A stretch of 64,000 nucleotides of DNA. It comes from Sipunculus nudus (taxonomy: Eukaryota; Annelida; Sipuncula; Golfingiida; Sipunculidae). The stretch lies in NCBI GenBank assembly GCA_026874595.1, contig CM049318.1, positions 34,059,956 through 34,123,955 on the forward strand. Direction: 5' to 3'. Both the position numbers and the translations under genes were made by a program. This document shows positions 29,941 through 38,727 of this stretch, piece by piece (the stretch's first letter is position 1; each line of letters begins with the position of its first letter). The notes beneath the pieces are model-generated. The model made no database searches. It saw only the letters and a list, made by a program, of their open reading frames with translations, and was not told the origin of the DNA.

Positions 29941-30122
29941 ATGAAGAAAAGAGTAAGAAGAAAGGTAAGGGTGGCAACTCACATCCGGGGAGCTGCCTTG
30001 CTGGTGATGCTAATGGTCACACATTCGGCACATGCAGCGCCCTCTTGCGTCTGTAAACCCGGTCTGCTCGTTGCTCGATGTGAAGAAACTGGTCCCGTGT
30101 GTGTCCCTTGTCCGCCCAACAG
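29941..30122 (+). CDS. TNFR-S8 exon 1: signal peptide and first cysteines
   Basis: The ATG is preceded by an in-frame stop and by a splice acceptor (29914, 'cttttccag'), so the 5' UTR is probably spliced. The exon encodes the hydrophobic core 'GAALLVMLMVTHSAHA' and five Cys (C36, C38, C47, C54, C57). It ends in phase 2 at 'caacag|gtaatg'. Confidence 0.82.
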
Positions 30123-36100: not shown

Positions 36101-38727
36101 CTGACGAGAGGCGCTGTCAGACGATATGCTGGAGCAACACGGTGGTCGTTGTCCTGGCGGTGGTCTGTGTGTGCTTGCTAGCTGCTCTCCTCGCGACCTT
36201 CTTTTGGTGTATCTGGAAAAGCAGAAGAAGAGACAGAAGGGCTGAGACAACTGCTGACTACCCGAGTGAAACTAAGAAGCTAATGCCCAGAGAACGCGAG
36301 TTTAGACACCATAAGGTATTTTGTTATTGGTCAGTCTAACGATGGCCCATTTCTCTGATAGTGCGTACTTCGGATTGCTGTACCTAAGATTAATGCTTTT
36401 ATCCTTATATACTAAAATATATACATCTCTTTCCGAGGGGAATTATGTTTCAGTTCATGCGACTCTGCGCCATGAAAATACAGTTTTTGTCAATTTAACA
36501 TTTTTTTTCTCTGTTTCGACATACTGGAGCATTGTGTAATAATGGGGTGGATAAGAGGTTGGATGGTCTCTGAAACCATGGGAATTTGTATTATTCCGTT
36601 TAATTGTGTCCGTTTTGTCTACTAACTATTTACTGCAAGTATTTCATGCCATATTGTTGGATGCGGCACATGTTTAAATAGTTAGCCCACTTTAATGCAG
36701 AGTTGAATGATAAAGTATACATTAAGGGAAAGAATGGGAAAATATTATCGATATTCACGTAGATTTCTCTTACATAAGAAATACCCAAGTCCCCCACTAA
36801 TGACCAACGTTCTGTCATACGCAGCGTTATGCAATCAAGTGTCATTTAGTATTTATACTGGCCTGTTAAAACAATGATAAAACAAATTCACTTCATTATT
36901 GAGCAAACATCATAGCTATGTTTCATAATGACGAAAGTCTATTGTAAAATATACCATGATGTCACCATCACCTATTAATGTAATCAAGTATTCAGGAAAC
37001 GCTTCTTATTGCTGCACCGCCATTGCAGATATTGCAATCTCCCTTTGATATAGACGTATCTATTTAATAGGAAAACCAACTGTTTGTATTGAAATTAAAG
37101 TCTCTTTCGGGGTATTTCATTTCATTGAGTAACCATTAGATGAGGATTATAAAAAGATTACCTTAAATTATATATGCCACAATTTCAGTGCACCGCATCT
37201 TCACTCAGTGAATAATGAAATGTAATTTTACATTGCTGGCTTCCAAAAGTCATGACATTTATATTTCATTTTAGGGTGGAGGTAGAGGGTTCACAGTGGC
37301 CACCCTGGGAAGCGAGAATAACTGGGCATTTAAGGACGTAGGAAACTGGGGCACTCTGAAATGGTTGAACCAGGCGGTGGAGCGCCACAAAGTGACCATC
37401 GCCTTGGTGGACTCTGGGGTCCGGATAGACCACCCTTTCCTGAGGGACTGGGAGGGTAATTTCATCAAACACATTTCCTGTATCCCAGGAACCAGGGACG
37501 ATGCAGCACTCGTAGACCCTACAGGCCATGGGACCTTCATGGCGGGCATTATAACCCATATGTTACTAGAAGCCAAAGACGTAGTGGAAATTGTTAACAT
37601 TAAAGCCATTGACGATGAGACTAGAGTTTCCCGTGAAAGTTTCAGCAGGGCTCTGGAACAGCTTTGTAGGGAACATGATGTAGACATAGTATGTCTAGCA
37701 TTCGGGTACGAATCTGGCCAGCAACAAACACCAGAAGAGCAAGATCTCCTAGCTCGTCTTGCTCACCGAAAGGTGATGATCGCCGCAGCATCTAACATCG
37801 GTGTTTGGCGTCCGGACGGCATAGCGTGGCCCGCCCGGAAGTTGATAGCGGTTGGCAGCCATGATGAGTATGGCAACCGCAGCAGGTTCAGCCCACGTGG
37901 GGAGAGTCTTCATGTTTTGGCACCAGGGGAGAAGATTGGGTCGGTTAATGCGGCTTATTGCGATGATCATTCAGAAAGTAAAACAAGGTTGGATTCCGGA
38001 ACTTCCTTCGCCGCCGCTTACGTCACTGCGGTTGTGGCCCATTTTCTGCTCCAGCTAGAACCGCGCATGCGTGGTAAGTCGTTTTGTTCTCAGTTGAGAA
38101 CAGGCCCTTGATCATATTTAAAATTACTTATTTTGACCAACAGTTGTTCCCGATTCACTAAGTTGATAGTCCATTTTAAATATTTTGAATTAAGGTTTGC
38201 CTCGGATAGGTCGACTGGCGCGAATATAGCACAGCATGGGACAGTGGACAACGCACCGTTACATTATTTATGTCATATGACATAAGATGTAGTGAGCACA
38301 GAGATAATCCTAAAGATTTTTTTCGGGGGGGGGGGGGAGGCACCAGAAGAACGGGAGTTGCCATAACCGCTAATTATAAATGAAAATGGATGGTGTTTGC
38401 CAGTCCGTATTAGTGCCTAGTTAAAGCCTTAGATTAGCGGATCCATATAAGCGTATTGATAGGTACTAATCCTCTTAACCATGTCTGTGTAGACGTTATT
38501 ATACTAATAATTCTATGACATTATTTTGTTGCCTCTTTGCAGATACTGAGCCGCCGGCATTTAACATGACGTCAACGGATGTGATGAAAGCCGTGCTGCG
38601 CCTAATGGCGCGCGACGATCAGCACAGTGTCGAGGGAGGTTACGGCCCCCTCAATCCCAACGAGAAAGCGTTCTCTGACGACGACGCGTTCCGCAACATC
38701 GTCAAACAGGCCCAGAGGCAAAACTGA
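29941..38727 (+). CDS. TNF-receptor-like transmembrane protein with cytoplasmic subtilisin-like (peptidase S8) domain
   Basis: Seven exons (29941-30122, 32292-32497, 33953-34162, 35320-35400, 36098-36315, 37275-38073, 38543-38727) join with matching phases to 1,881 nt, a 626-residue protein plus TGA. The start is fixed by an in-frame TAA at 29932-29934. Residues 1-32 are a signal peptide: Lys/Arg-rich start, hydrophobic core, cleavage near 'AHA|AP'. Residues 36-190 hold TNFR cysteine-rich repeats. Residues ~190-230 are a Thr/Ser/Pro stalk. Residues 242-266 form a transmembrane helix followed by a basic stop-transfer run. Residues 300-~590 are an S8 protease with Asp345 ('ALVDSGV'), His384 ('PTGHGTF'), oxyanion Asn473 ('AAASNIG') and Ser543 ('DSGTSFAAA'), all in canonical order. 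No inhibitor-type propeptide is seen. Known TNFRs signal through death domains or TRAF motifs; neither is found here. The S8 exon has no upstream Met and an in-frame stop just before it, so it cannot be a separate gene. The likely role, a ligand-gated intracellular serine protease in immunity or cell death, is inference. Confidence 0.85.
30123..32291 (+). other. TNFR-S8 intron 1
   Basis: Contains (TA)n/(GT)n/(GTAT)n at 30156-30290 and a small inverted repeat at 32173-32234 just before exon 2. The intron ends 'ttcttttattacag'. The rest is AT-rich with no recognised element. Confidence 0.7.
30156..30290. repeat. (TA)n-(TG)n-(TATG)n compound microsatellite
   Basis: TA units, then TG dinucleotides, then TATG tetramers with one broken unit. 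The open frames on both strands across it are artefacts. Confidence 0.95.
32292..32497 (+). CDS. TNFR-S8 exon 2: cysteine-rich repeats
   Basis: Residues 61-130, with nine Cys in TNFR spacing: 'CYECSPC', then 'YRQCTSTEDTQCRC' (the canonical 'xxC...DTxCxC' step), then 'CNKHTLCQPG'. It ends in phase 1 at 'accaagg|gtaaga'. Confidence 0.85.
32498..33952 (+). other. TNFR-S8 intron 2 with GGATCC-type repeat fragments
   Basis: 'caggagcggttctaggattt' (32963), 'caggggcgaatccagaaatt' (33171) and 'ttctggatccgcc' (33908) resemble ends of the GGATCC MITE family. Poly-G tracts lie at ~33551-33564 and ~33713-33729, and a (TTA)n near 33288. The long minus frame 32689-33168 has no family signature. Confidence 0.5.
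33953..34162 (+). CDS. TNFR-S8 exon 3: last cysteine-rich repeats and stalk start
   Basis: Residues 130-200, phase 1/1. The pattern 'CGPCEPGTY' and 'NNTQCLRHRDC' is the classic TNFR motif (CxxCxxGxY...QCxxxxxC), followed by 'STTDSIC'. After the last Cys it becomes a Thr/Pro run ('PLPTTTTKKS'). Confidence 0.88.
34163..35319 (+). other. TNFR-S8 intron 3
   Basis: Very AT-rich first half. 34720-34960 is more GC-balanced and could be a repeat, but I could not assign it. Confidence 0.6.
35320..35400 (+). CDS. TNFR-S8 exon 4: Ser/Thr/Pro stalk
   Basis: 81 nt, phase 1/1, residues 200-227. It is rich in Ser/Thr/Pro ('SSTQAPPSHSTLTT'), typical of an O-glycosylated juxtamembrane stalk. The symmetric phase means it could be skipped without a frameshift. 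Confidence 0.75.
35401..36097 (+). other. TNFR-S8 intron 4, internally duplicated
   Basis: A diverged ~267-bp tandem duplication: 'cctcgcaaaa' at 35591 and 35857, and 'ttgctacatattaag' at 35731 and 35999. Confidence 0.65.
36098..36315 (+). CDS. TNFR-S8 exon 5: transmembrane helix and basic cytoplasmic linker
   Basis: Residues 227-299. Two more Cys precede the membrane helix V242-W266 ('VVVVLAVVCVCLLAALLATF'). It is followed by 'KSRRRDRR', a stop-transfer cluster that places the rest in the cytosol. The exon ends in phase 0 at 'cataag|gtattt'. Reading through the donor gives seven more residues and a stop at 36337-36339. Confidence 0.86.
36316..37274 (+). other. TNFR-S8 intron 5
   Basis: Separates the receptor part from the protease exon. 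No promoter-like or initiator Met context precedes the protease exon, and the acceptor 'tttcattttag' directly abuts the coding frame. Confidence 0.75.
37275..38073 (+). CDS. TNFR-S8 exon 6: subtilisin-like catalytic domain
   Basis: 266 codons from phase 0 to phase 1. The Asp box 'VTIALVDSGVRIDHPF', His box 'DPTGHGTFMAGII', Asn box 'VMIAAASNIGV' and Ser box 'LDSGTSFAAAYVTAVVA' follow the D-H-S order and spacing of the S8 family. The blocks 'AWPA' and 'AVGSHD' (substrate-cleft/Ca-site strands), 'FSPRG' and 'LAPGE' are also typical. The whole core lies in one exon. The Ser box has Phe and Ala where GTSMAAP is common. Confidence 0.93.
38074..38542 (+). other. TNFR-S8 intron 6
   Basis: Contains a poly-G run at 38326-38337 and otherwise AT-rich sequence. 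Acceptor 'gcctctttgcag'. Confidence 0.75.
38543..38727 (+). CDS. TNFR-S8 exon 7: C-terminal end of the protease domain
   Basis: Residues 566-626. Starts 'TEPPAFNMTSTDVMKAVL', the helix that normally closes the S8 fold. 'GGYGPLNPNEKAFSD' then corresponds to the 'GxGxvn..kA' turn of subtilases. TGA at 38725-38727. Confidence 0.85.

Follow-up and report, generated by a model that had tools for sequence, protein, structure and literature searches.

Can a receptor of the TNF family carry its own enzyme? In the accepted view TNF receptors have no enzyme of their own and recruit adaptors instead; the question is raised by a gene lying within a 64-kb stretch of the Sipunculus nudus genome (hereafter the window; C13:34059956-34123955), in which a TNFR ectodomain, a membrane helix and an intact subtilisin-like protease domain of family S8 are predicted in one reading frame. 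This observation was confirmed here with a gene model rebuilt from raw genome sequence, and we consider it highly probable that the locus indeed encodes such an architecture. The best overall explanation, which we hold to be reasonably probable, is a single-pass TNFR with a cytoplasmic S8 protease whose active site is intact, transcribed as drawn and driven by ligand. Comparisons with related genes were confined to this one genome (1.43 Gb searched, 153 contigs). A search for PF14830, a domain of molluscan haemocyanin, gave no match, and neither did its control.

Predicted structure of the TNFR-S8 gene

Seven exons (Table 1) join into a frame of 1881 nt that stays open up to a single terminal stop and translates into 626 aa, all six introns being of the GT-AG type. 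At the level of sequence, the in-frame splicing predicted in the first-pass annotation of this DNA is confirmed. An in-frame TAA sits just 5′ of the start Met of exon 1, and residues 20-38 of the product are hydrophobic (mean 1.47), signal-like by hydropathy alone. The counterpart of exon 7 is likewise a separate exon in P2, P3 and P4, the three paralogues closest to the window gene (C13, 34.13-34.29 Mb).

The junction between exons 5 and 6 (36315/37275) is in phase 0 on both sides. In exon 6 the first Met comes at exon residue 89, behind His384, and right at the acceptor the frame is closed by a stop. Exons 6 and 7 alone are therefore unable to make an intact triad, which answers the possibility, raised earlier as a ground for refutation, that the protease exons have a start codon of their own; exon 6 has to be preceded by a coding exon whose donor is in phase 0, as that of exon 5 is. 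When both strands of the window were scanned blindly for membrane-helix exons with a phase-1 acceptor, a pyrimidine tract and a phase-0 donor, the single match was exon 5, and the same scan of both strands of 21 other loci gave one match each in L036 and L039, which represent two sister genes.

Ectodomain, membrane helix and protease domain

A search of the 626-residue product for both domains, as had been suggested, placed TNFR_c6 and Peptidase_S8 above their Pfam cut-offs. For TNFR_c6 the E-value was 6.4e-8 for the entire protein (33.3 bits against a cut-off of 29.4), with three stretches found at the lax threshold of E <= 1, the best covering residues 141-181. Among solved structures the ectodomain matched DcR3 best (E 6e-21 across residues 5-152 of a 163-residue query), followed by an ELR1 chain (1.7e-19), OPG (1.8e-17) and CD40 (about 1e-16). 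A single strong helix (residues 242-260, mean hydropathy 3.15) lies C-terminal to the cysteine-rich repeats, an arrangement that, by hydropathy alone, would suit a type I membrane protein, and is followed by KSRRRDRR, the positive charges of which suggest that the S8 part lies on the cytosolic side. The InaF-motif of Pfam also matched over this helix, below its cut-off (E 0.0021), and was set aside as a helix match.

Peptidase_S8 covers residues 337-588 (E 1.9e-24, 86.9 bits against a cut-off of 21.8). The active-site motifs LVDSG, TGHGT, ASNIG and GTSFA are present, and the numbering first given to Asp345, His384, Asn473 and Ser543 proved exact. Against solved structures the S8 part matched subtilisins (best E 3.6e-11). 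A single-sequence fold of exon 6 was poor (predicted local distance difference test score 34) and was not used; instead, a fold model was built from an alignment of 31 rows, for which a motif scan of viral contigs yielded at least 120 stretches, 118 of them open frames, 66 of these matching exon 6 and 35 being long enough, with 30 of the 35 aligned. The columns of the triad and of the oxyanion Asn are invariant in all 31 rows, and a subtilisin fold was found in the predicted structure (VIA-align being a re-inspection of the Foldseek matches alone). PADLOC and NCBIfam gave general subtilase-type matches alone, below cut-off where one is set. As to relatives of the S8 group of the window, three conserved-peptide pattern scans gave none, a kind of scan that cannot show absence, and one weak bacterial match (29%, L048) was obtained. 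The S8 domain is predicted to be a protease with an intact active site.

The same design at other loci

Searching its own genome with the S8 part as protein gave 26 matches, and TNFR_c6 gave 12, which fall in ten places once neighbours are merged and do not include the window's own exons. Four of the ten TNFR_c6 places sit upstream of a same-strand S8 exon, at 10.9, 12.6, 17.5 and 25.2 kb. By chance this would be expected with a probability of ~1.9e-4 per TNFR place (18 S8 places, 30-kb reach); tandem duplication means that the four pairs are not independent, and for two independent pairs among ten places the chance would be ~1.6e-6. At C13:28.82 Mb we found a TNFR exon and a transmembrane (TM) exon with phases 1-0 (both in L036) as well as an S8 exon (L010), and at C13:29.01 Mb a TNFR exon and another cysteine-rich exon, along with a TM exon (L039, its donor read as GTTAGT or a nearby alternative) and an S8 exon. 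In whole-exon scans, Pfam TNFR_c6 is over its cut-off at 28.82, 29.01, 34.295 and 28.92 Mb. All three parts are thus predicted at three loci, that of the window included, and a partial set at two. Between the 28.92/28.95-Mb and 29.01/29.03-Mb pairs, the TNFR and S8 exons differ to a similar degree (nonsynonymous proportion pN 0.33 and 0.30, synonymous proportion pS 0.79 and 0.76, the latter saturated), in keeping with the two having been duplicated together.

Of the other TNFR ectodomains, the closest (L037 681-2556, C13 2.021 Mb; 41% over residues 31-131 of the window query) has no S8 match nearby in the genome search and is followed by a possible TM exon at L037 5236-5436.

A family with other ectodomains

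In P2, P3 and P4 a TM exon immediately precedes the S8 exons. In front of it, P2 has three Sushi exons (E 1.5e-22 when joined) and one EGF-like exon (FXa_inhibition, E 3.8e-9), and in P3 one or more Sushi exons were read (E 9.9e-9). Ig V-set exons (E 1.2e-10 for two joined, and 1.8e-8) and a TM-like exon occur in more distant S8 copies, on C9 and C16; a TM exon is also present in the C15 copy at 2.68 Mb. The TM-to-S8 intron is in phase 0 on both sides in eight of nine pairs, the ninth (C16) being without a settled donor. In one followed C17 copy, of four, a RING exon (E 2.1e-7) lies upstream of an intact S8 exon, together with a degenerate S8-like stretch that is weak and below cut-off (E 0.046).

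Asp, His and Ser are kept in 14 of 17 aligned S8 copies, 13 of which also keep Asn. Left out of this count and of the S8 tree were L033 and L034 (C16, with stops), short S8 matches and the loci of other kind L001 and L003, L002, also of other kind, serving as outgroup row of the tree alone. Since no starred group of the tree contains the window copy, to which P4, P3 and P2 are nearest by path, we make no claim on the ancestral ectodomain. Taken together, the window gene appears to belong to a family in which a membrane helix and S8 cassette is combined with interchangeable TNFR, Sushi/EGF and Ig ectodomains. The interpretation given in the first-pass annotation is upheld in part: its architecture has strong support from the domains and from recurrence at other loci, the switching-on of the protease by ligand that it proposed would be conjecture, and TNFR turns out to be one of several ectodomains on the TM-S8 cassette, which was not visible from the window.

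Table 1. Exons and catalytic codons of the TNFR-S8 gene (window positions) and related loci elsewhere in the genome
Feature	Position	Strand	Content or remark
Exon 1	29941..30122	+	start Met, signal-like N-terminus, beginning of first cysteine-rich repeat; donor CAG|gtaatg
Exon 2	32292..32497	+	TNFR cysteine-rich repeats; PDB match to DcR3, OPG and CD40 ectodomains
Exon 3	33953..34162	+	TNFR cysteine-rich repeat and beginning of Thr-rich stalk; Pfam and PDB match
Exon 4	35320..35400	+	Ser/Thr-rich stalk; from translation
Exon 5	36098..36315	+	membrane helix (about 36142-36204), basic linker; acceptor phase 1, donor phase 0
Exon 6	37275..38073	+	S8 protease core
Exon 7	38543..38727	+	C-terminal end of S8 domain, stop codon
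Asp345 codon	37410-37412	+	catalytic, exon 6
His384 codon	37527-37529	+	catalytic, exon 6
Asn473 codon	37794-37796	+	oxyanion Asn, exon 6
Ser543 codon	38004-38006	+	catalytic, exon 6
P2 EGF-like/Sushi exons	L035 6091-9685, L012 489-710; C13 34.129-34.135 Mb		adjoins TNFR version
Ig V-set + TM + S8 genes	L044 6756-7723 with L029; L028 3-311		Asp, His, Ser all replaced
RING-S8 locus	L043, C17 37.63 Mb	minus	three more S8 copies of the group on C17

Elsewhere in the window, a stretch beginning GTCACGGTGCA occurs twice just 5′ of exon 1 (29320-29660; near 29.32 and 29.47 kb), each time by a long TA run. Two cysteine-rich open stretches on the plus strand, one weakly EGF/EB-like but below cut-off (58263-58436) and one with no Pfam match (59597-59719), are perhaps 5′ exons of P2. 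On the minus strand, an open frame at 48229-48597 with no Pfam match ends in LWNDLPDTLREA..FKRKLKTYLF, which we take to resemble the end of reverse transcriptases of long interspersed nuclear elements.

Possible mode of action and alternative explanations

No Death domain matched within the 626 aa at E <= 1, nor did a caspase domain, and none of the 37 Death matches in the genome lies near the TNFR-S8 loci. On C16 a Death match lies ~40 kb downstream of a TNFR_c6 match on the same strand, so that this genome may have ordinary death receptors as well. Genes for TNF-family ligands are present (13 genome matches, 12 of them on C9). One may imagine that a TNF-family ligand would gather the receptors, that the crowded S8 proteases would cleave one another or proteins close by, in the cytosol or the membrane, and that the resulting signal would be independent of a death domain. 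Such clustering by ligand, followed by action of the protease on itself or on its neighbours, is the likeliest course; we nonetheless put forward this ligand-driven mechanism tentatively, at somewhat less than an even chance.

Several observations weigh against the gene model or its ligand-driven use. The blind scan, which is more specific than it is sensitive, gave one stray match (L038, opposite strand) and passed over five TM exons called by eye (P2, P3, P4, L027 and L029), by our reading because a pyrimidine tract is weak, a donor is unusual or the repeat filter removed them. Few basic residues (2 in 15) come after the helix at 29.01 Mb, where the donor is ambiguous. Two of the four upstream TNFR places were below the Pfam cut-off in the genome search, though above it in the whole-exon scan. 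Between the TNFR exon at 28.92 Mb and the S8 exon at 28.95 Mb no TM exon with the expected phases was found, so this copy would lack a part, be built in another way or have escaped the scan, and in a fifth candidate (TNFR exon at 34.295 Mb, TM-S8 pair at 34.28 Mb) the middle part was not resolved. Asp, His and Ser are lost in three of the 17 S8 copies (C9, C16 and C15). Two N-glycosylation sequons (NRS and NMT) in the S8 part give no support for a cytosolic placing. Finally, the fold starts ~15 residues into exon 6 and ~50 residues past the helix, a prodomain is not visible, and no inhibitor_I9-type N-terminal prodomain matched in Pfam within the 626 aa at E <= 1; folding and activation would therefore need an unusual route.

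The main rival is that the receptor is real and the S8 part acts as a constitutive membrane-anchored protease, in turnover, shedding or vesicle traffic, the ligand merely positioning it. Furin and site-1 protease are membrane-anchored S8 enzymes, the latter standing in row 44 of the match list for the S8 part, and we know of no requirement of subtilisins for dimer formation to be active. The animal membrane S8 enzymes known to us are, however, lumenal, whereas the S8 part is here predicted to be cytosolic, and the swapping of ectodomains on one cassette suggests input-dependent use; we regard a constitutive role as unlikely, if still worth weighing. It could also be that the S8 part is a binding scaffold or pseudoenzyme and that the receptor signals via its linker. 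The triad-less Ig-TM-S8 branch would be consistent with this, as would the motif PREREF in the linker (window 36286-36303), which fits what we assume to be the TRAF6-binding pattern PxExx[aromatic/acidic]. Yet PREREF is short and was not noticed in the other paralogue linkers compared, the S8 exons of close paralogues are under purifying selection, and within the two C13 clusters (28.8-29.0 and 34.1-34.3 Mb) D, H, N and S are kept by the window copy and by every one of the six other S8 copies, all of which makes a mere scaffold quite improbable. A third possibility, that the helix is not a stop-transfer segment and the S8 part is extracellular or lumenal, would account for the sequons and for the four cysteines of exon 6, but the strength of the helix and the basic stretch behind it, basic residues being likewise present behind the helix of P2, P3, P4 and the 28.82-Mb locus, render it very improbable. 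Hardly credible, lastly, is that the gene of a TNFR-type receptor and an adjacent S8 protease gene were joined by eye: the intron between exons 5 and 6 does measure 959 bases, and read-through of exon 5 stops after seven codons, which would allow a short-tailed receptor, but exon 6 cannot by itself give an intact triad, the junction phases agree, the loci at 28.82 and 29.01 Mb show the same order and phases, and in six further paralogues the S8 exons are immediately preceded by TM-like ones.

Relation to known systems and significance

The TNFR ectodomain is shared with DcR3, OPG and CD40. DcR3 and OPG are not known to have a membrane helix, and the tail of CD40 binds TRAFs; we know of no catalytic domain in any of the three. 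With subtilisins and intracellular subtilisins (S8A) the S8 part has ~23% identity, and it differs from them in its linkage to a membrane helix and a receptor. The nearest precedent is a TNFR-caspase hybrid of amphioxus, predicted to span the membrane with the TNFR outside and the caspase inside the cell and backed by cDNA (Genome Biol. 2008, PMC2575513). As in the window gene, TNFR is there joined directly to a protease, which is a caspase of the cysteine type and not, as here, a serine protease of family S8, whose fold is another. Bacterial conflict systems couple peptidase domains to sensing or adaptor modules; in the excerpts of PMC7159879 and PMC8195603, trypsin and caspase types dominate, S8 is named once and no TNFR-S8 fusion is mentioned, so that they offer a general analogy only. 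The statement in the first-pass annotation that no TNFR with an S8 tail had been described agrees with the literature searched, in which we found no description of a TNFR-S8 receptor and whose coverage leaves most subscription papers outside; a TNFR-protease fusion as such was already known from amphioxus (PMC2575513). What appears new here is a predicted TNFR-protease receptor with a different enzyme class, which is part of a cassette family with exchangeable ectodomains.

A speculative extension, which we rate somewhat below the ligand-driven mechanism itself, would be a class of ‘receptor subtilases’ in which the TM-S8 cassette is combined with TNFR, Sushi/EGF or Ig ectodomains, with catalytic members, triad-less members that are possibly regulatory or decoys, and intracellular RING-S8 relatives. 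Extracellular ligands or microbes would then directly gather cytosolic serine proteases, in a proteolytic signalling free of adaptors and caspases. If the proposed reading of the window gene is true, it would be a further case, beside the amphioxus TNFR-caspase, of a built-in protease replacing the adaptor chain, and, within the literature searched, the first non-caspase enzyme in such a receptor. The active and triad-less branches and the swapped ectodomains would offer natural controls in testing if the gathering of receptors is enough by itself to drive proteolytic signalling.
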